DNA of 21,305 nt from the IMG/VR virus record IMGVR_UViG_3300005827_000213, positions 1 to 21,305 of that record; one strand, given 5' to 3'. The DNA is from a virus. Positions 2,493 through 20,485 of the stretch are shown here, in pieces. The first letter of the stretch is position 1. The number at the start of each line of letters is the position of its first letter. The notes under the pieces are model-generated. The model searched no databases. It was not told the origin of the DNA and worked only from the letters and a program-made list of their open reading frames with translations. The position numbers and the translations under genes are program-made.

Positions 2493-2939
2493 CTAGCCTT
2501 GACGTGTGGTGACCGGCACGCCCATCTTCTCGACCAGATCCAGCAGTCCTTCCGCCCCACCAGACTGGTACGCCTCAGCCAGCTGTTGATCAGTCGGCGC
2601 TGGTGTTCCAGTCTGAGAGCCGGCAACATTGTTGATCGTTTCCATGTTGTCGGCTACCGGGTTGGGTGCGTCGGACTCTGACTCACCTTCGGCGGCAAGG
2701 AAGCCATCCTCGATGGCCTGTGCCTTGATCGCGTCAGCGGTCAGCTCTCCTTCGTACCCGTTGATGAAGTACCGCATCTTCGGATCAGTCACCGGGATTC
2801 CTGCCTCAACGAACGCCATGCGGCGTGTCACCTTGGCAAGCTCCTCTTTCGCCTGGTCCCCTTCACGCGCTCTGCGCTCAAGGTCCCGACGCCAGTTGGT
2901 GCTCTGTTCCTGATCTTCGTCATCGAACGTGTCAGTCAT
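2493..2939 (-). CDS. capsid scaffolding-like protein
   Basis: A 148-residue acidic protein placed directly before the capsid gene. I chose ATG 2939 because GGGAGAGG precedes it closely; an in-frame GTG at 2960 would add seven residues (VSGKGEA) encoded by that ribosome site. The N-terminal half is charged and coiled-coil-like (NWRRDLERRAREGDQAKEELAKV). It is followed by AFVEAGIPVTDPKMRYFINGYEGE, a pattern seen in actinophage scaffold proteins, and a disordered Ser/Pro/Thr tail. It has no cysteine. The likely role is to guide assembly of capsid protein into the procapsid and then leave. The gap upstream (2940-3170) holds a promoter/operator candidate, so scaffold and capsid may have their own late promoter. 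Confidence 0.7.
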   Translation of the reverse strand: MTDTFDDEDQEQSTNWRRDLERRAREGDQAKEELAKVTRRMAFVEAGIPVTDPKMRYFINGYEGELTADAIKAQAIEDGFLAAEGESESDAPNPVADNMETINNVAGSQTGTPAPTDQQLAEAYQSGGAEGLLDLVEKMGVPVTTRQG

Positions 2940-3121
2940 TGCCTCTCCCTTTCCAGACACGCAGCCACGGAGGTATGACTACGGATGGGGCGGTGAAACA
3001 TCGGCAACACGCAGCCATGCGTGCGCCTGCAACACGGGCTAGAACGACACCGACCACCGCCCGGAGGGGGCCGGCCAACCAGAGCAAGGGGTGGATGGGC
3101 TTTCGCGCATCGCCACGCTTG

Positions 3122-3160
3122 TCTTGACATCAAGATACTGCGGGCTCAAGCGGTACGCAA
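3122..3160 (-). promoter_or_regulatory. promoter/operator candidate for scaffold-capsid genes
   Basis: On the minus strand TTGCGT (3160-3155) and TATCTT (3137-3132) are 17 bases apart, a plausible -35/-10 pair. The -10 overlaps a near-palindrome, AGTATCTTGATGTCAAGA (3139-3122). The same 18 bases occur with one change at 20670-20687. An operator on top of a -10 would block RNA polymerase. The leader to the scaffold start is about 180 bases. It contains a 6-bp stem hairpin (CACGCA/TGCGTG, 3008-3023) and two direct copies of ACACGCAGCCA (2957-2967, 3007-3017). No gene is supported in this gap. The hexamer calls are inference; the shared 18-mer is directly visible. Confidence 0.5.
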
Positions 3161-3170
3161 GAACCGCCGA

Positions 3171-4142
3171 CTACAAGTTTGCCGAGCCCAGCCCGGTGAT
3201 CCCCGACTGACTGGAAGCGAAGTCGCCGCCGCCGGCGTAAGCAGCTCGACGCCGTGCCGCACGGGCCTCCACACTGGCCGCATCGACACCCGACACGCCG
3301 AGAGCAGCGGACACGCCTTCCTCGACCGACAAGGTATCCGCCTCACCCATGAGGTTGGCGAACAGGTCACGCTGCAAGCCCACCTGGGCGGCAGCCCGCT
3401 GCGCCTCCTCTGGACTGAGATCCCCGGCCGCTGTTGCCAGCCGCTCAGCCTGAGCCTTGGTCAACGACAGCCCGTTAGCCATGACGTTGCCGGCGACCTG
3501 AGCCGCTGCCCACTCCCGCTGCAAGATCGGCGCGTTCCGGTCAGGGTCGAGGAAGTAGGCGATGGCAGCACCGTCACCGGACGGCCCGTAGAACTGGGCG
3601 AACATCTGCCTGACCTGTGGCGACCCGTAGACGAGGGATGCGGCATCGCGCATACGATCCTCCACCTCGACAGCCGACACGCCGTTACGGAGCATCTGCG
3701 AGATCGCGTTCCGGTCCCGGTACACCCCGGCCGGGATGCCGTACTGGCTGGCAAGCTCCTGCAGGGTGGACTCGAACTGGATGAATACGCCCTCGTTGAT
3801 CCCCAACCCAAGGGATTGCAGCTCCGCCATGCCAGGGAACCGGGCCTGGTACGCCTTCTGGTTTCTGATCTTGAGCATGATCTCGGCCTCGGAGTCACCG
3901 TTCAGCCACTGTTCCCATGCCCAACCACCCAGCTCACCAAGACCCCACGCCGCCAGCGCGGACTCAAGGATCGCCTGAGCACTCTGTGAAGCATTCGAGT
4001 CCGGGTCACGCCCCTTTGGCTTCTGCCGGTTCCGGTCACGCCGGCCATCTTTACCGGTGCGCGGGTCGTTGCCCTTGTTCCGGTCACGATCCCGGTCACG
4101 GTTCGGGTGCCGATCCCGGTCCCGGTCCCTGGTGGTTGCCAT
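3171..4142 (-). CDS. phage structural protein with Arg/Asp repeat N-terminus
   Basis: 323 residues; the ATG at 4142 overlaps the stop of the lysozyme gene (TGATG). Residues 4-48 are a charged low-complexity head of repeating Arg-Asp pairs (TTRDRDRDRHPNRDRDRDR) plus Lys and Gly. The rest is helical and of a type common in actinophages: SAQAILESALAAWGLGELG, then FPGMAELQSLGLG, then LQELASQYGIPAGVYR. The LQELASQYGIP...ISQMLRNGVSAVEVEDRMRDAA stretch resembles the LADEFGLP...ILSGRQTVEGYADVLRRQA stretch of the two wall-cleaving proteins upstream, so the three probably share a helical module. It has no cysteine and no membrane helix. It is last in the cassette before the promoter gap. An internal or ejected virion role is inferred; the repeat head could bind DNA or a protein partner. 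Confidence 0.7.
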   Translation of the reverse strand: MATTRDRDRDRHPNRDRDRDRNKGNDPRTGKDGRRDRNRQKPKGRDPDSNASQSAQAILESALAAWGLGELGGWAWEQWLNGDSEAEIMLKIRNQKAYQARFPGMAELQSLGLGINEGVFIQFESTLQELASQYGIPAGVYRDRNAISQMLRNGVSAVEVEDRMRDAASLVYGSPQVRQMFAQFYGPSGDGAAIAYFLDPDRNAPILQREWAAAQVAGNVMANGLSLTKAQAERLATAAGDLSPEEAQRAAAQVGLQRDLFANLMGEADTLSVEEGVSAALGVSGVDAASVEARAARRRAAYAGGGDFASSQSGITGLGSANL

Positions 4143-5488
4143 CAGATCGCTCCCATCATCTGACCCAGCTTGCCAGCCAGCTCAGCGGCAGTCTCCTGCG
4201 CATCGTTGGTCTTGTCGTAGCCAAAGCGTTTCTCGTTCATGATGGTGCGCTGCCACTCGTCCATTGTGGGGATTTTGCCGTCATCGGTTGGTTTCAGTAG
4301 CGCAGCCCACCGTCCACGATCCAGCCGCATTTCCTCCGTTGACACACCAAGCAGGGATGAGGCTTGCTGCAAGTAGGGCTCAGCCCAGTCCCGTACGGAC
4401 ACACCTCGGTCGAGGATGGGGGCGAGGTGTCCGTAGGTGTTCTTGGCTTGTCGTCGTAGAACATCGGCGTACCCTTCCACCGTTTGCCGACCGGAGAGAA
4501 TGTCCTGAGTCCACTGGGTGCGGCGTGCGTTGTCCAGCGGCAGACCGAACTCGTCCGCCAGCTCCTCAAGTTGCATGGTGATTTGCGCCGCGTCACCCAT
4601 CTCGGGCTTCTTGCCGCCGGCCCTGTACTTCTGGCCGATGATCAGCTGTAGCTCGGTGGAGTCCATGCCGTTCTTGACTGACCGTTCAGCAAGACTGCGT
4701 ATCTGGTCACCGTTCAGCCTGACACCCATCTGCCGGGCCATCGTCCGCACTTGCTCCCGCGCCCGCTCGATCATCCGGGCAGCTTCACCGGGATCCTCCA
4801 CAACGGTGATCTGCCAGTCACGCTGCGCCATCGTGTGCGTCTGCCACCACTCGGTCTGCTTGACCTCAGCCTCGAACCGATTGATCGACCACTCCTTGTC
4901 GACCGCCTGCTCCACCAGCTTGTCGATGGCCGGGTGCTTCTTGAGGAACTCAGGGTCGAACCCGAAGTCCAACCGGGTCAGCGGCTCCTCCTCTGGCCGG
5001 CCACCACGCCCACCACCGCCACCGCCCGCTCCGCCACCACCGCCACCACCGCCACTGGTGTCGGCCGATCCGGAGTTGTTGCCCCGGACATCCTGGGCCA
5101 GCTCGATGCGACCGTTGATCGCCGCTTGTGTCTGGTCGGCGGGCCGCTCGAACTCGGTCATAAACAACGACGTGGCGGATCCGAGAGAAATGTTGCCGCG
5201 CAGGTTCGCCAACAGGTTCGGGTAGTAGGACCGCAGCTCGAACATGATGTACCGCAGCTGCGTGTCGAGCGACCTCGGATTCAGCCCCTTGTTCGCAGCC
5301 CACCCAACCAGCGAATCCCACCGCTCACCTTCGGACCACTGGGCAATACCCATACCCGGCCCGCCGGCTTGGTCAGCGTTCGGGTCGACCCCTGACTCTG
5401 CCTTGAGGTTGCCGACGATGCCGGCCGCTGCGTTCCGCGACATCCCCTGGTTGATAAAGAACGAGTACGCATAGTTGACGTTGTTCAT
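4142..5488 (-). CDS. phage tail-lysozyme domain fused to helical virion module
   Basis: 448 residues. Residues 1-135 look like the phage tail lysozyme family: AYSFFINQGMSRNAAAGIVGNLKAE with probable catalytic Glu31, then GMGIAQWSEGERW (46-57). This should cut the glycan strands of peptidoglycan during entry. Residues 145-165 are a polyglycine linker encoded by a GGN repeat. Residues 170-448 are a helical module closely similar to that of the neighbouring M23 protein: identical blocks include GRQTVEGYADV, YLQQASSLLGVST and DGKIPTMDEW. The ATG at 5488 overlaps the M23 stop (ATGA). There is no signal peptide or holin partner and it sits inside the virion block, so a virion-associated entry enzyme is more likely than a late lysis endolysin. 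No cysteine. Confidence 0.8.
   Translation of the reverse strand: MNNVNYAYSFFINQGMSRNAAAGIVGNLKAESGVDPNADQAGGPGMGIAQWSEGERWDSLVGWAANKGLNPRSLDTQLRYIMFELRSYYPNLLANLRGNISLGSATSLFMTEFERPADQTQAAINGRIELAQDVRGNNSGSADTSGGGGGGGGAGGGGGGRGGRPEEEPLTRLDFGFDPEFLKKHPAIDKLVEQAVDKEWSINRFEAEVKQTEWWQTHTMAQRDWQITVVEDPGEAARMIERAREQVRTMARQMGVRLNGDQIRSLAERSVKNGMDSTELQLIIGQKYRAGGKKPEMGDAAQITMQLEELADEFGLPLDNARRTQWTQDILSGRQTVEGYADVLRRQAKNTYGHLAPILDRGVSVRDWAEPYLQQASSLLGVSTEEMRLDRGRWAALLKPTDDGKIPTMDEWQRTIMNEKRFGYDKTNDAQETAAELAGKLGQMMGAI
5001..5056 (-). repeat. GGN trinucleotide repeat encoding polyglycine linker
   Basis: A run of CCACCACCGCC-type triplets (GGN on the coding strand) encodes the Gly-rich hinge, about residues 145-163, of the lysozyme fusion. 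Its length may vary between relatives by slippage. A shorter Gly-rich hinge (residues 139-150) lies at the same place in the M23 fusion. Confidence 0.8.
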
Positions 5489-6771
5489 GTTGCGCCCATC
5501 ATCCGACCCAGCGACAGGGCCAGCTGGGATGCGGACTCTTGCGCCCCGTTGGTCTTGTCGTACCCGAACTTCTCATCCTTCATTATGGTCCGGGTCCACT
5601 CATCCATTGTGGGGATCTTGCCGTCCTTTGTGGGATTCAGCAGCTGGGCGTACTTGCCTTTCTGTAGCCGCATCTGATCGGTCGACACACCCAGCAACGA
5701 CGACGCCTGTTGCAAGTACGGGTCAGCCCATTGCCGCACGGTGGAACCGTTGTTCAGCACCGGTGCCAGGTGAGAGTACGCAGCCAACGCCTGCTCCCGC
5801 ATAACGTCGGCATAACCCTCAACGGTTTGCCGACCGGACAGCACCTCTTGTGTCCACCGGTTCAGCCGACGCCGGCTCACCGGCAGACCGAACTCGTCCG
5901 CCATTGTGCGAATGTCCGACACGATGGTTGCCGCCTGACCCCGTTCCGCCCCCTTGTCCATGCGGAACTTCTGGCCGATGATCAGCTGAATCTCGGTCGG
6001 GTCCAAGCCCTGTCGGACGGCACGAGCCGAGATCCGATCAACCTGCTCGTCGGACAGCACCACTCCCATCTGATCAGCCATCGTGATCAGGTCCTGCTTT
6101 GACTTCTCAAGCAGCGACTCAGCCTCAGCCGGGTCCTCAGTCAGCTGTATCTGCCATGACCGCTCAGCGACAGTGTGGTTCTGCCACCACTTTGTCTGTT
6201 TCAGCTCCGCCTCGAACCGGGGGATCGACCACTCCTTGTCGACCGCCTTCTCGACCAGCTCCGCGATCTCCTTGTGGGTCCGCAGGAACTCGGGGTCGAA
6301 CCCGAAGTCTGACTTTGCCAGCCCACCGCCACCGGTGCCACCGCTACCGCCACCACCGTGACCTGCCACCTTCTTGCCACCGAAGTAGCGGGTCGGGTTG
6401 ACGTTCGACTCGTACTCCCGGCTGCCCTTGCGAACCTCGAAGTGAAGGTGGGCACCCTCGGAGTTACCGGAGTTGCCGACGTTGCCGATAAACTCGCCCT
6501 CACCGACCCGTTGACCTTTGCGCACGTCAATGTCGGACAGGTGCGCATACAACGTCCACAGCCCGTTGTCGTGGCGGACGATGATGTAGTTGCCATATGC
6601 GCCACCGGACCCGGCGAACACCACCACACCCTTGGCGGCAGCCTTGACCCTCGTACCGAACGCAGCCCCGTAGTCGATACCGGTGTGGTAGCCGGCCTCG
6701 TAGTCACGGTTCTCCACCCCGTACTGCTGGGTGATGGAAGCGTTGACCGGCGGGGTCCACGAGTAAGCCAT
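5485..6771 (-). CDS. M23 metallo-endopeptidase fused to helical virion module
   Basis: 428 residues. Residues 1-130 form an M23 (LytM-type) zinc peptidase that cleaves peptidoglycan cross-bridges. The ligands are visible: H29 and D33 in YHTGIDYG, and the HLH pair H108/H110 in GAHLHFEV, with the further active-site histidine H77 in YAHLSD. The core strands VVVFAGSGGAYGNYIIVRHDNG and VGEGEFIGNVGNSGNSEGAH are intact, so it should be active. A Gly-rich hinge (139-150) leads to a 278-residue helical module shared with the next gene. The ATG overlaps the upstream stop (TGATG). There is no signal peptide or membrane helix and no cysteine. Position between the giant protein and the lysozyme fusion suggests packaging in the particle and use at entry; the assignment as ejected protein is inference. 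Confidence 0.85.
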   Translation of the reverse strand: MAYSWTPPVNASITQQYGVENRDYEAGYHTGIDYGAAFGTRVKAAAKGVVVFAGSGGAYGNYIIVRHDNGLWTLYAHLSDIDVRKGQRVGEGEFIGNVGNSGNSEGAHLHFEVRKGSREYESNVNPTRYFGGKKVAGHGGGGSGGTGGGGLAKSDFGFDPEFLRTHKEIAELVEKAVDKEWSIPRFEAELKQTKWWQNHTVAERSWQIQLTEDPAEAESLLEKSKQDLITMADQMGVVLSDEQVDRISARAVRQGLDPTEIQLIIGQKFRMDKGAERGQAATIVSDIRTMADEFGLPVSRRRLNRWTQEVLSGRQTVEGYADVMREQALAAYSHLAPVLNNGSTVRQWADPYLQQASSLLGVSTDQMRLQKGKYAQLLNPTKDGKIPTMDEWTRTIMKDEKFGYDKTNGAQESASQLALSLGRMMGAT

Positions 6772-8105
6772 CAGCCGCCACCCATCATGTTGGCGATGAC
6801 GTTGTAGTAGTTGAGCCGCTGGTACGCCTGGTATTCCTCTTTGTTCTTGCCCTTGGTCATGTTCTCAGCGATCAACGTGGGATCAACGTCAGTCGGATCG
6901 GTCACCGTTGTCACATCCCCGTCACGCTGGTAGGTGGAGGTCACGATTGACGGGTCCGCTTCCTGCCGGCTGTGCAGCTTCTGCACATAGTCGTCAATCT
7001 GCGCCTCGGTGGGTGCCCGACCCAACAGGTTCTGCATCATCGTCCGCAGCGCGTTACGCGCATCGGCCCGCGAAGTCTTGGAGATCCGCTTGGACACCCG
7101 CACCGGGTCGAACGGTTCCGCCCCATCCACCCCGTCGACCCCGATGTCTAGGCCGGCCTTCTTGGCGGCGGCAACCATCTTGATTCGGGATGACAGGTAG
7201 GCAGCCAACGGCATCCCCGACAGGTTCGCCTGTGTCAACGCCTGCTCGTACGTTGCTATCGCTTCACTGGTGGTGCGGTTGATCAGGTCCAAGTTGTCAG
7301 CGCCAGGGATGGCAGCCGCTTTCATCTGCTGCACCAGCTGCGCGTACGCCACCTCATCCATTGTGGTGATCTGGTACTGCTCACCTTCGTCATACTGTGG
7401 CGTACCCCAACCGCGAGCCAGTTTCTTTTCGTAGTCCGCTGCCGCCTTCGTCAACCGGGTCGTCGGGTGCCCGGTCTGTGGCCCGGCAACGGCCGGTTCG
7501 AGCGCATCCCGTTTGGTGTAGAGCGGCAGGTCCACCTGGAAGTTTCTGACCAGAGCATCCAGCTCATCCGGTGACGCACCCAAGCCTTGCTGTTGCAGCG
7601 CGTACTCCTCGGATCCAAGCCAGTTGTCGCCTGCCTGCCTGGTCGGTGACGGCGGCAGAATGATCGGATCACTGGTGAAGGACGCGGACGCAGCGGCCCG
7701 AAGATCCCGCCGGCCCTGCCGGGTGGCAGCCTTGACATCCCGTGCGACCTGATTCTTGTACGCGGACGCACCGGCCTTGACCACCTCGATCTTGTCAACG
7801 GTTTCCGCCGGCACCCGAACCCAGGTTGCCTCCGTTGCTGGTACACCAATGTCGCGGTACCGGATTGCTGACTGCGCTTCCTGCAAGGCGTCCACGGTTC
7901 CGTCATCGTTGAACCGGTAGGTGACCGGCACCCCTTCGGCGTTCGGGTACACGATGGTTCTCGGCACCGTGGGGGTGGGCACCATCGGGCCGAACGGGGT
8001 ACGGATGAAGCGGGTGGGCATGGTGCCAACCCCGGCTGAGCTGGCCCGCCGAAGCATGGCAACGATGCCGCCCTGTGGGTCTGCTGGCCCAGTGTAAGAA
8101 CTCAC
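6771..8105 (-). CDS. 444-residue phage virion protein of unknown role
   Basis: GTG start at 8105, overlapping the stop of the giant gene as GTGA. The N-terminus (SSYTGPADPQGGIVAM...) leads into a Pro-rich region (MVPTPTVPRTIVYP) and a helical charged body (AYKNQVARDVKAATRQGRRDLRAA). Near 345-375 is ARNALRTMMQNLLGRAPTEAQIDDYVQKL, a helical LGR-PT motif often met in actinophage structural proteins; the tail ends YYNVIANMMGGG. There is no enzyme motif, signal peptide or cysteine. It is linked by overlap on both sides to the giant protein and the M23 fusion, so it is probably made in step with them and part of the same internal or tail complex. I cannot name a family. Confidence 0.65.
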   Translation of the reverse strand: MSSYTGPADPQGGIVAMLRRASSAGVGTMPTRFIRTPFGPMVPTPTVPRTIVYPNAEGVPVTYRFNDDGTVDALQEAQSAIRYRDIGVPATEATWVRVPAETVDKIEVVKAGASAYKNQVARDVKAATRQGRRDLRAAASASFTSDPIILPPSPTRQAGDNWLGSEEYALQQQGLGASPDELDALVRNFQVDLPLYTKRDALEPAVAGPQTGHPTTRLTKAAADYEKKLARGWGTPQYDEGEQYQITTMDEVAYAQLVQQMKAAAIPGADNLDLINRTTSEAIATYEQALTQANLSGMPLAAYLSSRIKMVAAAKKAGLDIGVDGVDGAEPFDPVRVSKRISKTSRADARNALRTMMQNLLGRAPTEAQIDDYVQKLHSRQEADPSIVTSTYQRDGDVTTVTDPTDVDPTLIAENMTKGKNKEEYQAYQRLNYYNVIANMMGGG

Positions 8106-11100
8106 GCCGCCTCCTCGAACTGCTCAGCATCGAACTCGTAGCTGAGCAACCTGTCCCACGCCATTGTGAACGCAGGAACCTCCTGTGCCAAGGACTGACC
8201 CAGCGCGTACAGCTGCGGGGCCAGGTCCCTACCGTCACCGGTGCGGAAGTTGGACACCCCTTGTGCGCGCATCGCTGACCTAGCCTTGAAGTATGTCGAC
8301 AGGGCTTCACCAATCGGTGAGGCGAGAACCTTCTTGTCCCGCGACGCCTGCTCTAGCTCCAAGATCATTACCGCTGTGCCTGATCCCAGGTCAGGGATGC
8401 GGGAGTAACCGGGGAACTTGAGTTCCAGCATCGACTGGTAGGCGCGCATCTGATCGGACTGGGCCTCGTCCGGGCTTTCCCCAATCTGGTCCCGGTACGA
8501 CTGGTAAAGGGCTTGGCCTAGCCGCTGGTTGGCGGTCTCCACCAACAGCGACGGGTCGACCAAGGTGCGGCTGCCCTGCCGGGTCATACCGGCATAGGCC
8601 GGGTAGTAGAACTCGCTGCCCGGTTCGGGCACCAACAGCCCCCAGGTTCGTGAGTACTTGCCGACCAGATCGTTGTTGTTCCGCATCCAGTCGTACGTTT
8701 CCCTGGTGGGGGAAGCGAACCCGGTCGACTCCGATTTGGCACCGGCCATCAGGTACAGCGAGGAACCGAAGTCCTTGAGGAACCGCAGCAGCCCCTGCTG
8801 GTAGCCGTACCCACCCTCAGCCGGGTCACGCTCGTAGTCACGCAGAATCGCGGCCAGCTTCGTCTGGTAGACCAGCTCACCGTTCCCGGTGACAGCTGCC
8901 TGCTCCGGCGAACCCATCGTCGGCAGGACGAACTGTGAGATCCCACGCAGGAAGTAGAGCCGGCGCGCCAGTGTTTCCGCGTCCGCCTGCAATGCGGCCG
9001 TCCCGTCAGCGGTGCCAGTGTTGTACTTGCCGGTCGACGCCAAGTAAATCTGTGCCGCCTGATTGGCTGACGCAAGCTGTGACTTCTGCTCAGGGGTGAT
9101 CGGGTGAACGGACACCAACAGTTTGCGCACCCACGCCGGTGTCACGGAGTCAACGACTGCGTTACCCAGTCCGCCCTTGACATCCACACCGGGTCCGCCG
9201 AATGGGGCGATGAAGTTGAGTAGGTCCTCCTGCCACCCTGGTTGGTTCAGCAGCTGGGTTGCCGGCCCTGTCACAATCGGCCCGAACCCTGGCTGAATCT
9301 GACCGATCAGGTTGAGCCCTGACACGGGTGCCGGGAACATGACCTCGGGTGAATCCCCTGACGCCATGCCCATTGTGAGGAACTGCTGGAACTGTTGCGG
9401 CATCGGCCACGCGAACGACTCGTCACCAGTAGTGGCGTCCTTGAAGAAGAATCCTTGGTGCTCATCGTGCGGGGTGCCGGTGGCTTCGTAGACCGCCGAC
9501 GACCCTGGTTGCTGCGCCCCGTAGATGGCGTGAGCCATCCGGTCCAGCACCTTCGGATTGTCGATGACCAGCTTTGTCCACGTCTTGAACACTTCGGCCC
9601 ACGCCGACCCGAATGGTGCGACGATGCGGGCCGCATCCCAAAAGTGGGTCTTGTCGGCGGTGTCGTACAGCAGCTCCTGCACCTTGTCGAGCGCCCTGGT
9701 CTTAGCCATCGCGTCAATGTCACTCTTGGTCATGTGCGCGTACTGCGGGTCACGCTTGGCTAGTGCTTTGCGGATCGCCTTGGCTTGTGGCTTCGGGACC
9801 TGCACCTTGTCGAGCTGCTTCTCGATGGCAGCGGCAGCCTCATCGGTGGCGACAGTGGCGAACTCGGCCACCCGATCCCAGTACTCCTGGCGGAACACGG
9901 GGGACCGGGACAGGTAGTTGGTGGGTCGGGAGTTGAGGAAGGAGAACATGGCGGTGACGGCCCGGTCCCGAATCTTCGTGTCCGCCTTGGACAGCAGCTC
10001 CTTGGGGGCCACCACTTTGTCCGGTCGGGTGTCGAGCCGGGTGTAGTTGCGCAGCTCAGCGATGAAGTCACCCTTGCCACCGGCGTTGTAGACCTGACCG
10101 CCGCGACCGTGCGACGGGTCAACGAACATGCGCACCTCGTCGCCGTTCTTCTTCACAAGGTGACCGCGTTTGATCACACCGACCAGCGCCGGATCCATCT
10201 GTGCGGTGGCGTACCGAACCTGATCCTCAAGCTCCTGTGCGAACCGGGCCATCCCGTCCACGTTCCCCAACGACTGCGAGAACTCTGGCCGGTGCTTGGC
10301 CGATGCCTCACGCAGCGACAACACGTACTCTTTGCCGGTGGCGTGGTTCTCCATCCACCACACGGTCTTTTCCATATCGGTGCCGTTCTTGGCAAGAGCC
10401 TCAGGCATCGACACCAGCTCGTCCTCGGTGAACCCACCGACCAGCCGGCGCGCCACCGGGTCGCCGTGCAGCTTGCCCAGGGTGAACATCCACCCCTTGA
10501 CGTACAGCGGAGACTCGACACCGACCGGCTCGTGGTAGTTGCCGACGAACTTCATCGCATCGTTGTTGTCCAACAGCAGTCGGGAGTTGACCAGCGCGTT
10601 CGAGTAGGCGTTCGGCTCAGGGTCAGCGGCCAGGTCCCGCCACGAACGACCCATCAGGTCATGCGACTTGTTGCCCTTGATCGAGTGGAGGATGAACTGA
10701 ATCGGGTGACTGTAGATGTTGGCGTACCCGGATGCGTACAGTCGGCCCTGCTCCTCCAACATGACCCTCACCGGGTAGGCGATACGGGCCAATGCCGTCA
10801 CCTTGAAGAACGTGTTGTACCCGTCAGCACCCCGGATCACCCCATCCAGTGCTTTGGAACGGGTCAGGTCGAACCCTGACGCTGCCGCCCGACCGATGAA
10901 TCCGGTGATCCTGGTGATCTCACGCGGGTTGGGCAACGCCAGCACGTTGTCCATGTAGTCGCCCAAGATCATCGGGCCGGGGATTACCGCATCGTTGTCC
11001 GCCAGGGCTGTGCCGGGAACGTGACCACGCACACCGGGGTCCTTGGTGTGGTACGCCGCAATCTGCTCCTGGTTCTCACGCAGGAACGTCGTCAACTTGA

Positions 11101-14100
11101 AAGCTATCGCGTCAACCTCGGCCGGGTCCTTGCCCTGCCTAGTCCACGCCCTTTCCAGGTGGTGCTTGAGCGTGGCGTTGATCGCCTTGAAGGTTTCCTC
11201 GTAGACAGTCTTGCGGCCGTACTGGGTGGACTTGTCAACCATCGACCCCAGCACCTTGTCACGCTCGGCCGCTGGCACCCGTGCCGCCATCATCCAGTTG
11301 TGCGCCTCACGCAGCGCCTGGTCCGCATCGTTGAGGTTGACGTACTGGCCCGGCATGACGTGGAACAACCGAATGTCCGACAGCTGCCGCTTGAACCCTG
11401 GCGCGTGCAGCAGCGCCGCGTCGACACCGTTGAGCACAGCATCCTTGCCGGCCCCACGGACAGCGATCTGCTGAATGTCCTTGGTGGCGGTGAACCGCAA
11501 CAGCTCCTCGGTCACATCATCGACAGTGTTGGCGTGACGCAGCGCACGCAGCACTACGGCCGGCTGCCACCCGATCAGCTTGATCAGCTGCTCCACCGAA
11601 TCGGTGGCGGCGATCTTCTCCTTGAGCGGGATCCGCTTGTCCGAGGTGACCCACTTGTAGAACCGTTCCGGCACCACGGATCGGCGCACACCAGCATCCG
11701 ACACGCCGGCCTCAGCCTTGTGTGGCGGTGTCGCATCCCCTGCCTTGAGTACCTGATTCAGCTCGTCAGCTGCTTCACGGCTGTACTCGCCGGCCATCGG
11801 CTTACGCAGCACCTCACGGCCATCAGCGGTGGGCTCGTAATGCCAGCCCCTGTCCAGCATCCGTTGCCGCTGCGACTGCCACGCATCCCACTGTTCCTGT
11901 GGCACCGTGGACGGGCGCTGCGCCGGAACATCGAACCCGATCATGTTGTCGTACAGGTTCTCCTGAGTACCGGACAGCCGCACACCAAACTGCCGCTCAT
12001 CCCAGTTGTCAATGACCTGTGTGGTGCGGTCGGCAACCTTCCTACGGGTGACCGGTTGCGACTTCCACTTGCTCGGTTCGACCACCTCATAGACGGCTTT
12101 GCCGGTGCTGTCGGACCACTTCACCGCGTCGTACTTGCCCAAGAACACCTTGTCGACAAGCATTTCCATTTCGCGGGCCGACCGCAGCGCCGACTCGCCT
12201 TGCGCTTCCGGCAGTACCCGGTTCAGCTCCTCGAACGCACGAACCAACTTCTCGATGTCAGGGTTGACAAGGTTCTCATCAACCTTGCGCAATGCCACCG
12301 TCACCGCGTCAGGGAGTTCGCCACCAAGAGCTTCCTCGATCTTGTTGAGCCGGCCACCGATGTAGTCCCGCAACGGTTCGGCCACATCCGGGTCGTCAAG
12401 GTCAGCCACCTTGGCCGGCCGGTTCGGCTTGAAGTTCATGGCGACAGCGCGTGCGCCATCCATGTTGTCGTCAATGATCTTCGGGTCGGTCACCAACGCA
12501 CGGGTGGTACCGAACAGCCGGAACTGGGGGAATGCTGCCTGCCCCTTGCCGGCGCGCACACCCACATCGGCCAGCTCAGCCCCGTACAGCGGCAATCCAG
12601 GCTCAGCTGTTGCCACCTTGGCCCTGGCCGCTTCGTGCGCCCGACGTGAGTAGTCAATGGTCTGGTCGAACCCTTGGTACATCTCAGCTTCGAGTTCACC
12701 GTACGGGTCACGTTTGATCCCAGGGATGGTGACATAGGGCTTGGTGCCGGTGCCCTTGACCCGCTCCTTGGTGATTCGTCGCACCCGACCGGGGTTGACG
12801 ACGTTGCCCTCATCGTCAACAACCCGACCAACCACCTTGTCGTACGGGGTGACCGTCCGCCATTCGGTGTTGGCCTTGAGCTTGACGTACTCACCGTTCG
12901 CTTTGGCCCGCCGCCACTCCGCCGGGTCGATCCCGTTGGCGATCAGCAGGTCATTGAACGGTGACGCATCGGCAGCACCGCCCACGATCTTCGCCTGCAT
13001 CGTGTCGCCCACCATTGCCGCCCGCAACGGACCCTGGTTCAGCCACATCCCCAGCTGCTCGGGGTCAGAGGAGGCGTTGATAAACCACTCGACCGGCACC
13101 TCACCCTCAAGAACCGCCCGCTCTTGCGCCTTCTTGGGCAGGGACGCAATCGACAGACCAACCTCGGTCATCTGTAGCTGCTCATCCAGCTCGTCAATGG
13201 CCTGCAACAGACGGGGTTTGCGCTGCTTACGGATCTCAGCCTCAACCTGCTTGGTGAGGGTTTCCACCTCCTTGGCCTCATCGAAGTCACCCAGGTCACG
13301 CGGGGCCGGCCATGCGTTCAGCGGCTCCTCCCGGTACACCGACTGGCGGACCTGCTCCGCCCCAAGCTGGGTGTCCACCCCACCTTTCAGACTGTCGGTG
13401 CGGTACATCACCCGTGCGTTGTCCAGTGGCACCACCTCGTCCAGCATGGTGGCGTCGGTCACCGCAGCAATGGGCTGACGGTCGAACAGCTCCTGTGTGC
13501 GTAGCGGCCGAACCTCGGACAGTGTTGCCAGGAACGTGCCGAACCCAAGATCGGCCGAAACGGTGTCGGTGTAGTTCGCCAACGGTTGCGTCATCGAGTC
13601 CACAGCAGGACCGAACGTGCGTGTCACCTCACCGGTGGCCTCATCCACTTGATCAACGAATGGGCTGACCCGTTCCGCGTCGGCGGGAAGCATCTGGTCG
13701 GGTCGGTACAGCGACACGTTGCGCCTGGTGCCGATCACGTTCCCGGTCTGGTCCTTCACCGGGATGTTGCGGACCACCCGCCGCCAACCCTCCTGGTTGA
13801 CGAGCTTGTCGAGTTCGACATTCATGGGATGGCCGGCAGGGATGGCCTCGGTCACGTCGATCTGGACCATGCGTGCCCGCATATCGGGCAGCGACACGCC
13901 GGTGGGGATCACGTTGGAGGAGTAGCCGGCTTTGAGTTCGTCCGCCCAGCCGGTCGCCGGGTCAGTGTCGATGTAGCCCTGCACCCCAGTCGGCTCGAAC
14001 TTCACCCTCACCGGGTCCGGGGCGTCCATCTTGCGGCGACTACGCAACCGCAACCCGGCCGCTTCGGCGGGTTTGTTGGAGCCGCGCAGCACCGCCAGCA

Positions 14101-15553
14101 CCCCAGGTTCGGACGATGACCCTGCCGCATACCAAGCCGGTGCCCACTGTTCCAGCTGGCCGGCCTGATCGGCTGCCCGTGGTGCCTGATCCCAGCTGGG
14201 AAGCTTGAACTGGGTGGCAGGGGCGACATCCTCCAATGTGGTGGCCGCAGCAGCCGCATTGTCCACGTCGGACAGCTCCACGAACGTCTTGCCCTTGGCC
14301 CAATCAACTACCTGAATGGTGTTCTGGAACGCTTTGGCACCGGGAATGGCACGGGTGACTGCCCGAATGGTGCCGGCCGGCATGTAGGTGGACGGGTCCA
14401 GGGCGAGCGCACCGGTCGCATCGACCAGCCCGGATGCCAGCTTGTACGGGGTGGACCCTGGTTGCAGGATCAACGATGCCAGGGTGCGGCCGGCGGTGGC
14501 CGGATCCTCACCGATCTGGTTGGCGTACCACACGGTGTCCCGCACCCGCTTGGTCGCTTCCACCTGACCACCCATAAACCAGCCTTCACCGGCCCGCATT
14601 TCACCGGTGCGCCACAGCTCACGGCTGGCCTCAGCGAAGGTGGTCTCATCCCAGCCCTCATCCCAGCCGACACCAACACCGGCAGCACCCACGGCGGCGA
14701 TCTTCTCCAAGTTGGAGAGGGTGTCGTAGTTGCCGTCAGACCAGTCCTTGAGGTTCGCCCGGATGGAAGCGTTGTACGCCTCCCACGGGGCGGACAGGGT
14801 GGCGAACGTGCCACGGGAGAACCACTTGACCGCATCGAACGCATCGGACAGGAAGTTGCCGTCGCTGCCCGCAACGTCAGCCTCAGCGGCAAGCACTTCC
14901 CGCAACGGCATGATCAGCTCGTCGTCGGTCAACGAATGGAACTGGCTGCCGTCCCAGCGGGCCGTGGTGACAGCACCCAGGTCGAACCCTCGGGTGACCA
15001 GATTGTTCGCCAAATCCGCATCGGACAACGAGTAGTTGAGGGAGGCGTATTCGGCCGCATCTTTCGGTGCCAGGGTGGCAACACCCTTGTCAGGGGTGGC
15101 AGGGGTGACCGCACCGGGGGTGGCTGACTGGACTGCCAACGATGCTGCCCGTAGCGCCGCCGTTGACGCCACCGGTAGCCCACTCATCCCCAACGCGAAC
15201 CCGGTGTCCGCCCCGACGAACGGCATTGACAAGCCGATCTCGTTGATTCGGGCAGCTGTCAACGCATAGTTGCCGTCCTCATCGGCAGCCATGACCTGTG
15301 ACATTGCCCGCAACCGGCGGGTGTTGGCTTGTGCCGCCTGTAGCCCTGCCGCCACATCCCTTGGGTGGGCTGGTGCCCCCGACTTCACCCACCGGACGAA
15401 CGGTTCGGCTGCCTGAGCCGACGCCCACCCGCCACCACCGCCTTGACGGTAGTTCGCTGACACCCGTGGGGCACCACCGAAACCGGGAATGGACACCTCC
15501 TGGTCGGCTGAGCCGTCGACCAACTCCTCCAAGGAGGGGAACTGCTCAGTCAC
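8102..15553 (-). CDS. giant 2483-residue virion protein, probably internal/ejected
   Basis: One uninterrupted frame from a GTG at 15553, three bases after the previous stop, to 8102. It occupies 35% of the window. Visible parts: a Gly-rich N-terminus (GGGGGW at 38-43); a weakly hydrophobic Ala-rich stretch around 113-148; GLVDATGALALDPSTYM at 375-391, a motif type I have seen near the start of large phage internal proteins; charged helices 760-900; a mixed region 1560-1620; and PFGSAWAEVFKTW at 1980-1992 within a helical C-terminal third. I see no HExxH peptidase motif, no Walker A and no convincing T7-type polymerase motif set. It contains no cysteine. It lies between portal and wall-cleaving proteins, so a packaged protein ejected with the DNA, or a large portal-vertex/tail protein, is the best inference. 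It could also be a multidomain polyvalent protein. Confidence 0.65.
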   Translation of the reverse strand: MTEQFPSLEELVDGSADQEVSIPGFGGAPRVSANYRQGGGGGWASAQAAEPFVRWVKSGAPAHPRDVAAGLQAAQANTRRLRAMSQVMAADEDGNYALTAARINEIGLSMPFVGADTGFALGMSGLPVASTAALRAASLAVQSATPGAVTPATPDKGVATLAPKDAAEYASLNYSLSDADLANNLVTRGFDLGAVTTARWDGSQFHSLTDDELIMPLREVLAAEADVAGSDGNFLSDAFDAVKWFSRGTFATLSAPWEAYNASIRANLKDWSDGNYDTLSNLEKIAAVGAAGVGVGWDEGWDETTFAEASRELWRTGEMRAGEGWFMGGQVEATKRVRDTVWYANQIGEDPATAGRTLASLILQPGSTPYKLASGLVDATGALALDPSTYMPAGTIRAVTRAIPGAKAFQNTIQVVDWAKGKTFVELSDVDNAAAAATTLEDVAPATQFKLPSWDQAPRAADQAGQLEQWAPAWYAAGSSSEPGVLAVLRGSNKPAEAAGLRLRSRRKMDAPDPVRVKFEPTGVQGYIDTDPATGWADELKAGYSSNVIPTGVSLPDMRARMVQIDVTEAIPAGHPMNVELDKLVNQEGWRRVVRNIPVKDQTGNVIGTRRNVSLYRPDQMLPADAERVSPFVDQVDEATGEVTRTFGPAVDSMTQPLANYTDTVSADLGFGTFLATLSEVRPLRTQELFDRQPIAAVTDATMLDEVVPLDNARVMYRTDSLKGGVDTQLGAEQVRQSVYREEPLNAWPAPRDLGDFDEAKEVETLTKQVEAEIRKQRKPRLLQAIDELDEQLQMTEVGLSIASLPKKAQERAVLEGEVPVEWFINASSDPEQLGMWLNQGPLRAAMVGDTMQAKIVGGAADASPFNDLLIANGIDPAEWRRAKANGEYVKLKANTEWRTVTPYDKVVGRVVDDEGNVVNPGRVRRITKERVKGTGTKPYVTIPGIKRDPYGELEAEMYQGFDQTIDYSRRAHEAARAKVATAEPGLPLYGAELADVGVRAGKGQAAFPQFRLFGTTRALVTDPKIIDDNMDGARAVAMNFKPNRPAKVADLDDPDVAEPLRDYIGGRLNKIEEALGGELPDAVTVALRKVDENLVNPDIEKLVRAFEELNRVLPEAQGESALRSAREMEMLVDKVFLGKYDAVKWSDSTGKAVYEVVEPSKWKSQPVTRRKVADRTTQVIDNWDERQFGVRLSGTQENLYDNMIGFDVPAQRPSTVPQEQWDAWQSQRQRMLDRGWHYEPTADGREVLRKPMAGEYSREAADELNQVLKAGDATPPHKAEAGVSDAGVRRSVVPERFYKWVTSDKRIPLKEKIAATDSVEQLIKLIGWQPAVVLRALRHANTVDDVTEELLRFTATKDIQQIAVRGAGKDAVLNGVDAALLHAPGFKRQLSDIRLFHVMPGQYVNLNDADQALREAHNWMMAARVPAAERDKVLGSMVDKSTQYGRKTVYEETFKAINATLKHHLERAWTRQGKDPAEVDAIAFKLTTFLRENQEQIAAYHTKDPGVRGHVPGTALADNDAVIPGPMILGDYMDNVLALPNPREITRITGFIGRAAASGFDLTRSKALDGVIRGADGYNTFFKVTALARIAYPVRVMLEEQGRLYASGYANIYSHPIQFILHSIKGNKSHDLMGRSWRDLAADPEPNAYSNALVNSRLLLDNNDAMKFVGNYHEPVGVESPLYVKGWMFTLGKLHGDPVARRLVGGFTEDELVSMPEALAKNGTDMEKTVWWMENHATGKEYVLSLREASAKHRPEFSQSLGNVDGMARFAQELEDQVRYATAQMDPALVGVIKRGHLVKKNGDEVRMFVDPSHGRGGQVYNAGGKGDFIAELRNYTRLDTRPDKVVAPKELLSKADTKIRDRAVTAMFSFLNSRPTNYLSRSPVFRQEYWDRVAEFATVATDEAAAAIEKQLDKVQVPKPQAKAIRKALAKRDPQYAHMTKSDIDAMAKTRALDKVQELLYDTADKTHFWDAARIVAPFGSAWAEVFKTWTKLVIDNPKVLDRMAHAIYGAQQPGSSAVYEATGTPHDEHQGFFFKDATTGDESFAWPMPQQFQQFLTMGMASGDSPEVMFPAPVSGLNLIGQIQPGFGPIVTGPATQLLNQPGWQEDLLNFIAPFGGPGVDVKGGLGNAVVDSVTPAWVRKLLVSVHPITPEQKSQLASANQAAQIYLASTGKYNTGTADGTAALQADAETLARRLYFLRGISQFVLPTMGSPEQAAVTGNGELVYQTKLAAILRDYERDPAEGGYGYQQGLLRFLKDFGSSLYLMAGAKSESTGFASPTRETYDWMRNNNDLVGKYSRTWGLLVPEPGSEFYYPAYAGMTRQGSRTLVDPSLLVETANQRLGQALYQSYRDQIGESPDEAQSDQMRAYQSMLELKFPGYSRIPDLGSGTAVMILELEQASRDKKVLASPIGEALSTYFKARSAMRAQGVSNFRTGDGRDLAPQLYALGQSLAQEVPAFTMAWDRLLSYEFDAEQFEEAA

Positions 15554-15556
15554 GGC

Positions 15557-15949
15557 CTAGCCCCGCATCTGCTGGTAGTCGAGGAGCCGTTTGATTCCGG
15601 GGAACGGGAACGCCTGATACAGCGCCCGCAGCTCATCGACCCCTGGTTGCGGTGCCTGCATCCCTGGCGGGGTCGACAACGCTTCCGGGCCGGGTCCGGG
15701 GCCGGCGGCAATACCGGCGGTGACCGGTTCGTTGGGCCGTTGGGTTGGGTCCATCAACCCAGGGATCGAGTCAGGGTTCGGCAACGGTGCGGACTGCACC
15801 GGCATCGCCTGCTGGGAGCGGACCTGTTCGGCTTGCGCACCGTACGGTTGGCCGGGAATCTTCGCCATCGCCGGTTTCGGTGCGTTCAGGTCGGTGCGGT
15901 TGGAGTACGCCTTGCCTGGTGTTCCGTTCCTACGGCCACCGCGTGCCAT
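15557..15949 (-). CDS. proline-rich small conserved phage protein after portal
   Basis: 130 residues, starting one base after the portal stop with a GGAGGT ribosome site six bases upstream. It begins MARGGRRNGTPGKAYSNRTDL, a basic opening I recall from many actinophage proteins located next to the portal. The middle (about 35-105) is disordered and rich in Pro, Gln and Gly, and the end (YQAFPFPGIKRLLDYQQMRG) may form a helix. It has no cysteine, no membrane segment and no enzyme motif. Coupling to portal and to the giant gene suggests a head-assembly or portal-associated factor. The function is unknown. Confidence 0.7.
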   Translation of the reverse strand: MARGGRRNGTPGKAYSNRTDLNAPKPAMAKIPGQPYGAQAEQVRSQQAMPVQSAPLPNPDSIPGLMDPTQRPNEPVTAGIAAGPGPGPEALSTPPGMQAPQPGVDELRALYQAFPFPGIKRLLDYQQMRG

Positions 15950-15950
15950 T

Positions 15951-17747
15951 TCACACCTCCGCTGGGGTCATCATGCTGGGCCGGCGCAACGCATTCATCA
16001 TCGACGCCAGATTCTGCGACCCCTGCTCCGGTTCACCAATGGTCGGCGGCTGCTCCGCCCCCATTCCCGGTTGCGCCAACCCTGGCATCGTTTCCGGTGA
16101 CCCCGGTGGTGCCTGCTCGGCTTGCCGTGCCTGCGCTTCGGCCTGCACCGTGGACACAGCTTCGGCCAGCTCCATCCGGTCGTTCTCCACCAGCTCGGTG
16201 ATGCGGGCAACATCGGCTGGGGGGATCTGCCCGGACTGGGCTTGCGCCTGAATGCCGGCCAGCAACGCCTTCGACAACGCTTCGGCTGTCACCCGGTCCA
16301 TTTCCTTCTCGGGATCGTCAACCATCGGGTCCATTTCCATGTACGTCTTGACACTCATGGCACCGATGCCGACCCGTTGACCCATTGCGATGACCATGCC
16401 GTTCAGGTCGGTGCCGACAGCCGGGTAGGTGACAATGCACTTGTCCGAGTCGAACACCTGATCGGGGATGTACGCCTGGTTGCGGGCGGTTCCCAACCCG
16501 GTGACGTACACCCTTCTGGTGCGCCCTCCGTACAAGCCTTTCTCCAAGGCGACAGCCCGCTTGTTCTCCTCCTCGGCGGACGCCGCCAACAGCTCCTGCG
16601 CCTCAGCAATGGGCATATCGATGATGCCTTGGAGCACCGCGTCACCACGCCGGCCGGTGCGAATGTTCGACCCTGATTCACCGGAGAACTCGCTGGGGAT
16701 ACCGGCGGTGACCCGCTGGTTGCGTTCCAACCGGTCAATGGTCGGGTTCGTTTGGTAGCCGGGGTTGGTGGTCTGGTCCTTGATGTCGCCACCGGCCACA
16801 ATGTTGAGCTTGCCGCTGCGGCCGTCGTAGGGGCCGTCGATGATGCGGGCGATCTCACCGGCACGCGACACAAGGTAGGTGTCGGGAAACACACCCTTCT
16901 CGACCGCTGCCAGCTCCAAACCCATGAGCCGCATCTGCATCTGGTACATGGGGATCATCTGGTCGAACTGGCCCTGCTCACCACCAAGGGTGAAGCGGCG
17001 GGGGACCACGACGGTACACATTCCGGCAGGGTTGGGCATATCCGCCAGGGTGGTGGCCCGCACCCCCACCCGGTCGTTGTACCCGTTCAGCGCGTTGCGG
17101 CGACCGATCAGCACCATCGACCATTGTTGCGGGTCGCAGTACTCAAGGATGGTGAACCGGTCGTCGTCTTTCTGCATTTCGCGGCGTTCGTCGGTGACCA
17201 TTGCCATCTGCTCAGCGAACCCGTGCTGCGCCAACCAGCCACGGGTCCGTTCCCGCTCCACAATGGCGTCGTACGGGCACATTTGGTCGATCTGATCCAG
17301 CGGCGACACGTAGGTTGCCAGCGGGTCGAGCACTTCCCACGCCGGCGGTGCGTCACCCATGCCTTTGCGGACCATCATGGGGGAGGATCCGTAGGCGATC
17401 AGGAACCTGGCCCTGTACCTCATCTTGAGGTTCATACGGTTGTGGTCCCACCAGCCTTGGGCGGCTACCCGGCGGGTGTTGGCTCGGCGGTCGGCCGCTT
17501 TCTTGCCGGGGTCGACTGACGGCCAGTACTGATTGGGTCGCACCGATGCGATGCGGGCAGCCATCTGGTCGATGCCGGTGTTGACAAGGTTCGCCACCCC
17601 TGAGCGTTCCGCCGAGTCCAGCTCGGGCAGCGGCACCACCAACGCACCTTCATAGGTTTGCCTGATCTCGGTCATCCGGTTGATAGCCGGGGTGCGGTTT
17701 GTCCTACGCAACTTCCACAGGTCGTGAACTTCTAGGCCGTCAAGCAC
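15951..17747 (-). CDS. phage portal protein
   Basis: 598 residues, forming the ring at the head vertex through which DNA enters and leaves. The GTG at 17747 overlaps the terminase stop by eight bases; an ATG would only come at residue 25. Portal-like features are the long helical wing, an FERxxxxT-free but typical stretch VPRRFTLGGEQGQFDQMIPMYQMQMRLMG, the GIPSEFSGESGSNIRTGRRGDAVLQG segment where many portals have their clip and stem helices, and a long C-terminal helix (AEALSKALLAGIQAQ). The last 56 residues are Pro/Gln/Met-rich and probably disordered. Four cysteines are present, unlike the genes that follow. Position directly after the large terminase supports the call. Confidence 0.8.
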   Translation of the reverse strand: MLDGLEVHDLWKLRRTNRTPAINRMTEIRQTYEGALVVPLPELDSAERSGVANLVNTGIDQMAARIASVRPNQYWPSVDPGKKAADRRANTRRVAAQGWWDHNRMNLKMRYRARFLIAYGSSPMMVRKGMGDAPPAWEVLDPLATYVSPLDQIDQMCPYDAIVERERTRGWLAQHGFAEQMAMVTDERREMQKDDDRFTILEYCDPQQWSMVLIGRRNALNGYNDRVGVRATTLADMPNPAGMCTVVVPRRFTLGGEQGQFDQMIPMYQMQMRLMGLELAAVEKGVFPDTYLVSRAGEIARIIDGPYDGRSGKLNIVAGGDIKDQTTNPGYQTNPTIDRLERNQRVTAGIPSEFSGESGSNIRTGRRGDAVLQGIIDMPIAEAQELLAASAEEENKRAVALEKGLYGGRTRRVYVTGLGTARNQAYIPDQVFDSDKCIVTYPAVGTDLNGMVIAMGQRVGIGAMSVKTYMEMDPMVDDPEKEMDRVTAEALSKALLAGIQAQAQSGQIPPADVARITELVENDRMELAEAVSTVQAEAQARQAEQAPPGSPETMPGLAQPGMGAEQPPTIGEPEQGSQNLASMMNALRRPSMMTPAEV

Positions 17748-19653
17748 GACTGCCCGCCCACGCCGGTAGCTTCGGTTTGTTCTGCACGGGTTGCCTCATT
17801 CCACGCTGGGCGTTCCGAAGATACGCCGGCCTTTCCTGCTGGTAGTGCGTCTGCTTCGGTGACCATGACTTTGCCAGGTGGTGCTCGAAGAACCACATAG
17901 CCATGACCTGATCGTAGTCCTGCACGTTCGGATAATGGGTCAGCTCGTACCGGATTCTGTCCATGACGTGTTTGCTGGCCTCCACCGGTGCCCCCGGCAA
18001 CCGGTACTTGCCCTGCTTGGTTGGGGACTGTAGCGACTCCACCCCGTACTGTGGGTCGGTTTTGTTGCGGTGGGTGTCGTGCGGCACCAACGCCACGTTG
18101 TACCTACTCAACCACCGTCCCCATATTGGGTTTTGCAGCATGAATCGTTGCGCCGCGTTCTGCTCCACCACCACCATTTCCAGCGGGAACCCTTGCCGCA
18201 ATGACTCCTGGTGGTAGTCGTGGAGGATGCCGGAGAACTCGCCGGAGTCCAGGTCCATCGACAGGAACTGTGGGGTGGTCAGTTTGGTGCGGGCCACCGC
18301 GTCGATCAGGTACCGGCCCTCGGTTTGCGGGTGGTAACCCCACCATTGGATCGCCCAATATTTTGTGGGGGACGGGTCAACGGTGATCACTGACCACCCG
18401 GACCCGTCTTTGAGTAGGTCGGGCACCTGACCCAACGGCCGTTTCGGGTCGTAGCAGCCGGGGAAGTACTGCTGCGTGTTCGGGTCGGTGCCACCGTCCA
18501 ACCACAACTTGTCGATGAGGACATCCTCAGGGTTGGTGTCCTCCTGTTGGTACACCGTGGTGAAGATGCGCGGCCGGTTCTCAGCAATGGCGGCAAGCTT
18601 CTTCCACGGCAACCGTTTCGGGTCGAGCAAACACGTCGCCGGCCACGGTGCAACGGAATGGTGGTGACCCAAACATTTCGATTCGTCGTGCGCCGGGTAG
18701 ACGATGTGTTGGTAGTCAGGTCCGCCGGCTTCGTTCTTCTTGTCCAGGCAGTACCGGTACAAGTCCTCGGCAACAATCCTTTGCCCTTGCAGGATGAGCA
18801 CACCGCCCGGTTCCAACCGTGATTCGGCTTGGGTGTCCCATTCGTCGAACAGTTCGGCCCGCATCCCATCGGTGCGCATGTTTTTCAGGTCAACAAGGTC
18901 GTCCCATATCACCACGTCGAACCGGCCACCCAAGTATCCGGAGTCGAACCCGTATGCGGTAACAGTGGATTCTTTCTCGTCGGTCAGTTCCATGCCGGGT
19001 TGGATGACGGTGAACTCGTGTGCCCGCCAAATCTCTGACCGGTCGGGTGGTTGGAACGCACCGAAGTCTTTGACCATGACTGCTTGCGCATCGGTTGCCA
19101 TGCCACGTTTGAGATCTTTGTTGGAGGCTCGCATCGCAATTTTGCGCATGAGGGTGTTTCGGATGCGGCGGGTGTATGCGGTGGCTTGCCGTTCGGTTCT
19201 TGACCCCAACATGATTCGGATGGAACGGTCTCGTGCGATCAGCCAGCAGGGAATGTCGTGGGTGAATGTGGTCGATTTACCTGACCCTGGTGGTGCGTTG
19301 ATCACCAGCTTCGATTCGACATCTTCGTCGTTGAGTGCGGCGACCACTTTGTTGGCGGCATCAACCTGCCACGGCACGGATCGTCGCCCGAAGTAGCGGG
19401 CACGGAAGTAGGCGAAGTCGTCCAACGCCCGTTTCGGCACGTTGCCGTATCCGGGGTCGATGACGGTGCGACCAACACGGGTGATGCCGAGGGCTTGGGC
19501 AGCTTTCGCCCCTGACCCGCCACCGGTCCGCTCGAACCGTAAACATGTTTCGGGGCTGATTCCGGCTTGTTTGGCGGACGCGGTGACCGAGTTGCCTTGG
19601 TCTCGGGCGGCGAAGTACACCCCCCACCGGTCGGTCCCTACCCGTGCGGCCAT
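17740..19653 (-). CDS. terL: terminase large subunit with N-terminal HTH
   Basis: 637-residue packaging motor. The ATPase domain has Walker A NAPPGSGKST (119-128), a Walker B-type FDVVIWDD (245-252), and the LILQGQR coupling motif (287-292). The RNase H-like nuclease domain has probable metal ligands D426 (ITVDPSPT), E497 (VVVEQNAA) and D579/D581 (QDYDQVMAMWFF). Residues 9-45 (WGVYFAARDQGNSVTASAKQAGIS...) read as a helix-turn-helix typical of small terminase subunits; no separate small subunit gene is visible in the window. The start ATG at 19653 lies 13 bases after the previous stop with only a weak ribosome site. The C-terminus overlaps the portal start. It has six cysteines. The nuclease and ATPase motifs look intact. 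Confidence 0.92.
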   Translation of the reverse strand: MAARVGTDRWGVYFAARDQGNSVTASAKQAGISPETCLRFERTGGGSGAKAAQALGITRVGRTVIDPGYGNVPKRALDDFAYFRARYFGRRSVPWQVDAANKVVAALNDEDVESKLVINAPPGSGKSTTFTHDIPCWLIARDRSIRIMLGSRTERQATAYTRRIRNTLMRKIAMRASNKDLKRGMATDAQAVMVKDFGAFQPPDRSEIWRAHEFTVIQPGMELTDEKESTVTAYGFDSGYLGGRFDVVIWDDLVDLKNMRTDGMRAELFDEWDTQAESRLEPGGVLILQGQRIVAEDLYRYCLDKKNEAGGPDYQHIVYPAHDESKCLGHHHSVAPWPATCLLDPKRLPWKKLAAIAENRPRIFTTVYQQEDTNPEDVLIDKLWLDGGTDPNTQQYFPGCYDPKRPLGQVPDLLKDGSGWSVITVDPSPTKYWAIQWWGYHPQTEGRYLIDAVARTKLTTPQFLSMDLDSGEFSGILHDYHQESLRQGFPLEMVVVEQNAAQRFMLQNPIWGRWLSRYNVALVPHDTHRNKTDPQYGVESLQSPTKQGKYRLPGAPVEASKHVMDRIRYELTHYPNVQDYDQVMAMWFFEHHLAKSWSPKQTHYQQERPAYLRNAQRGMRQPVQNKPKLPAWAGSRA

Positions 19654-20477: not shown

Positions 20478-20485
20478 AACCCAAG

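Follow-up and report, generated by a model that had tools for sequence, protein, structure and literature searches.

Seven consecutive genes without cysteine

Why should a run of neighboring virion genes encode no cysteine (Cys) at all? The question is raised by a virus record of 21,305 bases, analyzed here over its whole length (the window), in which the main genes lie on the (−) strand. A preliminary description had stated that seven consecutive products of 130, 2,483, 444, 428, 448, 323, and 148 aa lack Cys and that the proteins around them do not, and the translations bear out both statements: none of the 4,404 residues of the seven products is Cys, and their neighbors contain six (terminase), four (portal), one (capsid), and two (a 154-aa protein). 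A 253-aa ORF cut at the window end encodes another four. The block differs from the remaining window proteins (Fisher test, P = 1.9e-9, or 9e-8 without the terminase), with the signal carried mostly by the 2,483-aa protein; the 130- and 148-aa proteins would each be Cys-free by chance with a probability of 0.3 to 0.6 and are uninformative alone.

In a six-frame control, the sense frame of the block showed 0 TGY in 4,411 codons, and its five other frames showed 224, 149, 112, 158, and 212. The base composition at the codon positions predicts 54 Cys in the coding frame, 843 block codons are a single base change away from Cys, and Trp is not depleted (75 observed vs. 46 expected). Because 54 Cys are expected, the other frames contain 112 to 224 TGY, and Trp is above its expectation, base composition does not explain the absence; the composition expected from codon use, which the preliminary description had named as a check, does not account for it either.

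Gene content of the window and comparison with Beephvirinae

Three (−)-strand genes outside the block encode the terminase large subunit (17740 to 19653; 25 to 27% identity to Beephvirinae terminases and a weak Terminase_6N match), the portal protein (15951 to 17747; 23 to 24% identity to Beephvirinae portals), and the major capsid protein (1524 to 2465; PF13252 and phrog_1357), with the terminase and portal genes overlapping at 17740 to 17747. The seven block genes, all on the (−) strand, start after the portal gene with a small Pro/Gln-rich protein of 130 aa (p130; 15557 to 15949; phrog_8200, unknown function), probably a small member of an ejection set. It is followed by a giant protein of 2,483 aa (8102 to 15553), which is the counterpart of Beephvirinae gp9 and a candidate for the main ejection protein, and by a 444-aa candidate ejection protein (6771 to 8105). 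Next come two predicted peptidoglycan hydrolases: a 428-aa protein with an M23 peptidase head and a helical C-terminal domain (5485 to 6771; Pfam PF01551, E = 2.6e-33) and a 448-aa protein with a Phage_lysozyme2 head and a C-terminal domain as in the 428-aa protein (4142 to 5488; Pfam PF18013, E = 4e-32). The block ends with a 323-aa candidate ejection protein that has an Arg/Asp-rich N terminus (3171 to 4142; phrog_8424, unknown function) and an acidic protein (2493 to 2960) of 148 aa, or 155 aa if started at an upstream GTG, which lies directly upstream of the capsid gene and is probably the scaffolding protein.

The two hydrolases are paralogues (48% identity) that combine one common C-terminal domain with different enzyme heads and Gly-rich linkers (4142 to 6771). 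In many environmental relatives, this family includes members of ~300 aa whose N terminus has no recognizable enzyme head. The C-terminal domain of the 428-aa protein was modeled with a pLDDT of ~90, and no known fold was found for it; a Foldseek search with the peptidase model returned nothing below E 0.8, and a PDB profile search with the peptidase family gave only noise. The giant protein had no Pfam match and only noise in a PDB profile search, and its C-terminal part was modeled with too little confidence (mean pLDDT, 53) for a fold search. At 2,483 aa, the giant protein is longer than full-length counterparts from environmental relatives (1,511 to 1,858 aa) and than those of Beephvirinae (~1,640 aa). 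The block proteins are largely helical in prediction, and hydropathy revealed no transmembrane segments in them. Elsewhere in the window, a TTGTAG(A/C)ACAA-type repeat occurs in three overlapping copies (20486 to 20545). The copies cover the beginning of a 78-aa ORF (20283 to 20519, (−) strand) and the bases immediately upstream; the ORF resembles a ribbon-helix-helix regulator in sequence, and the repeats are possibly an autoregulated operator.

The window phage is apparently a short-tailed phage of actinobacteria, and we compared it with seven Streptomyces phages of the Beephvirinae (FlowerPower, RosePharie, WRightOn, Immanuel3, Stella, and Dennebes, with Abafar alike), which are known as short-tailed phages. 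Their late gene order is that of the window (terminase, portal, small genes, giant protein, 280-aa protein, two peptidoglycan hydrolases, 380-aa protein, scaffold, and capsid), with homologous terminase, portal, and capsid proteins (22 to 39% identity overall, 36 to 39% for the capsid) and a C-terminal domain common to the two hydrolases. However, all of the Beephvirinae examined have an endolysin gene between the terminase and portal genes and a tRNA array before the scaffold gene, both of which are absent from the window (0 tRNA genes). Since it lacks these features, the window phage is a relative of the Beephvirinae and not a member.

In the seven Beephvirinae, the 22,156 residues of the five large block proteins include 7 Cys. 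Each genome has one, always Cys33 of an NlpC/P60 peptidase, in the motif DCSGL. This is the catalytic motif of the NlpC/P60 family; the only Cys tolerated in the block of the named relatives is the catalytic residue of an enzyme, whereas the window encodes an M23 metallopeptidase without Cys. Other virion-region genes of the Beephvirinae encode 0.70% Cys, and the (−)-strand genes of FlowerPower encode 1.26%.

Cysteine absence is conserved in environmental relatives

Direct scans of viral contigs with the giant protein and with the portal protein found no relatives. A scan based on a capsid alignment found 424 contigs, 80 of which were kept, and the absence of Cys was replicated in ~60 environmental contigs. 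There is no Cys in 34 homologues of the giant protein (45,158 aa), in the 33 proteins at the position of the 444-aa protein (8,576 aa), or in 22 homologues of p130 (2,672 aa), which keep their place between the portal and giant proteins; the 59 homologues of the 323-aa protein contain one in 20,747 aa. The peptidase family has 57 real members in the relatives, three apparently Cys-bearing homologues having been rejected as off-frame ORFs or a frameshift. Likewise, the apparent Cys in 4 of 63 scaffold homologues was traced to false upstream starts or a frameshift.

Overall, the block genes of the relatives contain a single in-frame TGY in 99,510 codons, compared with 3,493 to 5,203 per other frame. 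This codon is a TGT in the 323-aa family of contig L063. Because two near-identical contigs have GGT there and the peptidase-family gene of L063 is itself broken (7191 to 8197; an apparent frameshift relative to the near-identical contig L060), the TGT may be a sequencing error. The giant proteins are 17 to 25% identical where aligned to that of the window, and the absence of Cys has therefore outlasted most of the sequence. Downstream virion families of the same contigs contain 285 Cys in 57,580 residues (0.50%). Ordinary Cys numbers, which the preliminary description had named as evidence against its reading, were not found in homologous block proteins of the relatives, nor is low Cys a property of the whole group, as the other gene sets (0.50%, 0.70%, and 1.26%) are not comparably poor. 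We are nearly certain that selection removes Cys from the block.

Ejection proteins of other short-tailed phages

The comparison was extended to proteins known or annotated to be ejected in model phages, which were chosen by hand and are not a random sample. In T7, gp15 (0/747), gp16 (0/1318), and gp14 (1/196) together contain one Cys in 2,261 residues, and P22 gp7, gp20, and gp16 contain none in 1,309. The N4 proteins gp50, gp51, and gp52 (ejection set from PMC12633501) have 0 Cys in 4,294 residues, and the proteins annotated as ejected have 0 in 2,416 in phiKMV (gp35 to gp37) and 0 in 2,956 in phiEco32 (gp22 to gp26). The count is 7/7478 (0.09%) in the cargo of crAss001 (set from PMC10172136) and 5 in 2,574 aa in epsilon15 gp14 to gp17. 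The ejected sets of T7, P22, N4, phiKMV, and crAss001 each fall below the other virion proteins of the same phage (P of 0.002 or less). The polymerase-associated cargo of crAss001 has five Cys, four of them no more than ten residues from a terminus (gp47, position 2339 of 2341; gp49, position 5; gp50, positions 5 and 2404 of 2412).

Homologues in viral contigs follow the same pattern, in sets that include many close copies before dereplication: no Cys was found for T7 gp15 (34,319 residues; 11,242 dereplicated), P22 gp20 (34,247; 3,344 dereplicated), or P22 gp16 (49,222; 1,895 dereplicated), and T7 gp16 homologues contain 5 in 63,244 residues (1 in 24,412 dereplicated). The exception among the three core ejection proteins of T7 is gp14, with exactly one Cys in each of its 14 dereplicated homologues. 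The preliminary description had proposed a shared constraint linked to ejection, and the same absence in proteins whose ejection is known (T7, P22, and N4) or annotated (phiKMV and phiEco32) lends this proposal strong support.

N4 (Schitoviridae) resembles the window phage in having a giant Cys-free internal protein whose gene lies next to those of smaller Cys-free ejection proteins, but it infects gram-negative hosts, its giant protein is a virion RNA polymerase (vRNAP), and no homology to the giant protein of the window is detectable. Pfam and PDB profile searches revealed no relationship of the latter to the N4 vRNAP or other polymerases, although, its fold model being poor, a distant relation in fold is possible. 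T7 (gp14 to gp16) and P22 (gp7, gp20, and gp16) are also short-tailed and encode their ejected internal proteins in consecutive genes, the large ones being Cys-free; they differ in their gram-negative hosts, in the single Cys of T7 gp14, and in that no sequence homology to the window proteins was found.

Contractile tails and tape measure proteins

In the three contractile-tailed phages compared (phiKZ, P1, and T4), cargo is not depleted relative to the other virion proteins of the same phage: the phiKZ vRNAP has 16/2614 Cys (P = 0.65; mildly below its non-virion counterpart, P = 0.036), the Dar, Ddr, and Hdf proteins of P1 have 13/4213 (P = 0.28), with 9/2255 in DarB, and T4 Alt has 3/682 (P = 0.6). 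Homologues of DarB (64 copies, mostly close) average ~8 Cys each. All five tape measure proteins analyzed are Cys-free (lambda H, 0/853; P1 Sit, 0/1140; T4 gp29, 0/590; Samy, 0/1568; ArV2, 0/1208). This comparison of sequences indicates that Cys absence marks the ejected proteins of several short-tailed phages and not the cargo of contractile-tailed ones.

These data bear on the idea, also raised in the preliminary description, that the constraint is unfolding and passage through a narrow tube. If transit alone were the cause, a disulfide or thiol crosslink formed in the head or tail would block exit via the portal and tail. The cargo of crAss001 must indeed partly unfold for constrictions below 50 Å (PMC10172136), and ejected proteins are Cys-poor in five short-tailed phages, but the phiKZ vRNAP, P1 DarB (with its Cys-bearing homologues), and T4 Alt pass a tail with ordinary Cys, and we consider transit alone unlikely. 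The proposed link to ejection stands, whereas narrow-tube passage is insufficient. Storage in the head and transit through a tube are common to both tail types, and therefore neither alone explains the absence of Cys; the Cys retained in the head-packaged proteins of P1, T4, and phiKZ led us to reject storage in the capsid as a sole cause.

What does differ is the route into the cell. Short-tailed phages build a conduit through the envelope from ejected proteins, whereas a contractile tail brings its own tube. Tape measure proteins emerge from long tails into the envelope. For phiM1, an envelope conduit made from ejected proteins has been described (PMC11440229). The Cys-free tape measure proteins and the contrast between tail types thus favor exposure of unfolded protein in the oxidizing envelope as the cause.

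A proposed mechanism and its limits

We suggest that the block serves this short-tailed relative of the Streptomyces Beephvirinae as its ejection cassette. The giant, 444-aa, M23, lysozyme, and 323-aa proteins, and probably p130, would be packed in the head and, unfolded at least in part, would exit through the portal and the short tail; the two hydrolases would open the cell wall, and the ejected proteins would refold in the envelope to form a conduit for DNA. Cys would be costly while chains are unfolded in an oxidizing space outside the cytoplasm, where disulfides between them would cause misfolding or jam the conduit, and cargo inside a long contractile tube would be shielded from this cost. 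That the cause is exposure in the oxidizing envelope, and not transit alone or assembly, is the reading to which we lean with modest confidence, drawing on a small, chosen set of phages.

Several observations run against the envelope reading. T7 gp14 has one Cys in every homologue, epsilon15 has five, and the crAss001 cargo has seven. The Beephvirinae peptidase takes its catalytic Cys along the same route, and the N4 vRNAP is fully Cys-free even though it ends in the cytoplasm and may travel inside the conduit. Scaffolds are also Cys-free, though not ejected.

The probable scaffold and the extent of the proposed ejection set

The last of these points applies to the block itself. The 148-aa gene occupies the position, directly upstream of the capsid gene, of the annotated scaffolding protein in Dennebes, and its product is probably a scaffold, Cys-free yet probably not ejected. 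Cys is likewise absent from the T7, P22, and phiKMV scaffolds, which lie outside the ejected sets, and the phiEco32 scaffold has one Cys. Cys-free scaffolds mean that the absence of Cys is no proof of ejection. They also suggest another cause: without Cys, the scaffold and ejection proteins packed together inside the procapsid would stay free to come apart or be rearranged. The window family adds to the Cys-free scaffolds, but the single Cys of phiEco32 and the Cys of the head-packaged P1 Dar proteins, T4 Alt, and phiKZ internal proteins speak against an assembly constraint, which we regard as quite improbable.

The suggestion that the whole block is one injected machine accordingly needs trimming: it fits five or six genes and not the 148-aa one. 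The layout, with a giant protein, an M23 protein, and a Phage_lysozyme2 protein encoded between the portal and capsid genes, is that of an ejection-set region, and the block has the Cys absence proposed as the mark of such sets in short-tailed phages. The block without the scaffold is probably the ejection set.

A further possibility is that low Cys is a general feature of helical, charged, and partly disordered proteins, which would suit block proteins that are largely helical and without transmembrane segments. However, the block includes globular enzymes and more Trp than expected, and related proteins differ according to their fate: the N4 vRNAP has 0/3500 Cys compared with 13/673 in its fold-matched, non-ejected relatives RNAP1 and RNAP2 (P = 5e-11), and in FlowerPower, the 257-aa endolysin has 4 Cys and the virion lysozyme has none. 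Composition is thus a very doubtful cause. Chance in a single genome, to which only the two small, individually uninformative block proteins lend anything, has a negligible probability, refuted as it is by the base-composition expectation (54 vs. 0) and by the codon counts of relatives, with repetition in ~60 contigs and seven named phages.

Relation to earlier work and implications

The absence of Cys from N4-type vRNAP was reported in 2002, according to a passage in PMC2784036, and tail passage or the disulfide-forming periplasm was suggested as the reason (PMC3715699), a suggestion repeated in later papers. Cys absence has also been remarked on for internal proteins of Zobellviridae (PMC10747016). 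The Cys-free N4-type vRNAP and the passage or periplasm idea are hence already published. A review of ejection proteins makes no mention of Cys, and a literature search, with subscription journals mostly outside its scope, found no published general rule, contractile-tail contrast, or catalytic exception.

The pattern has practical consequences. It is unsafe to infer a virion RNA polymerase from missing Cys, as was done for StenR_269 (PMC10747016). Ejection proteins are often too divergent to spot by homology, and in the short-tailed phages examined, the longest reading stretches free of both stop codons and Cys are mostly ejection proteins (T7 gp16 and gp15, P22 gp16 and gp20, N4 vRNAP and gp51, phiKMV gp37 and gp36, and the five large block genes), which provides a cheap annotation test. 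More broadly, though here we are tentative and the balance is somewhat against us, Cys absence may be a general mark of proteins exposed unfolded in the envelope (ejection proteins of short-tailed phages and tape measure proteins), set by oxidizing chemistry and not by the tube, relaxed under a contractile tail, and usable to find ejection proteins in any genome. An old remark on the N4 vRNAP would thereby become a testable statement on what ejected proteins meet on entry.
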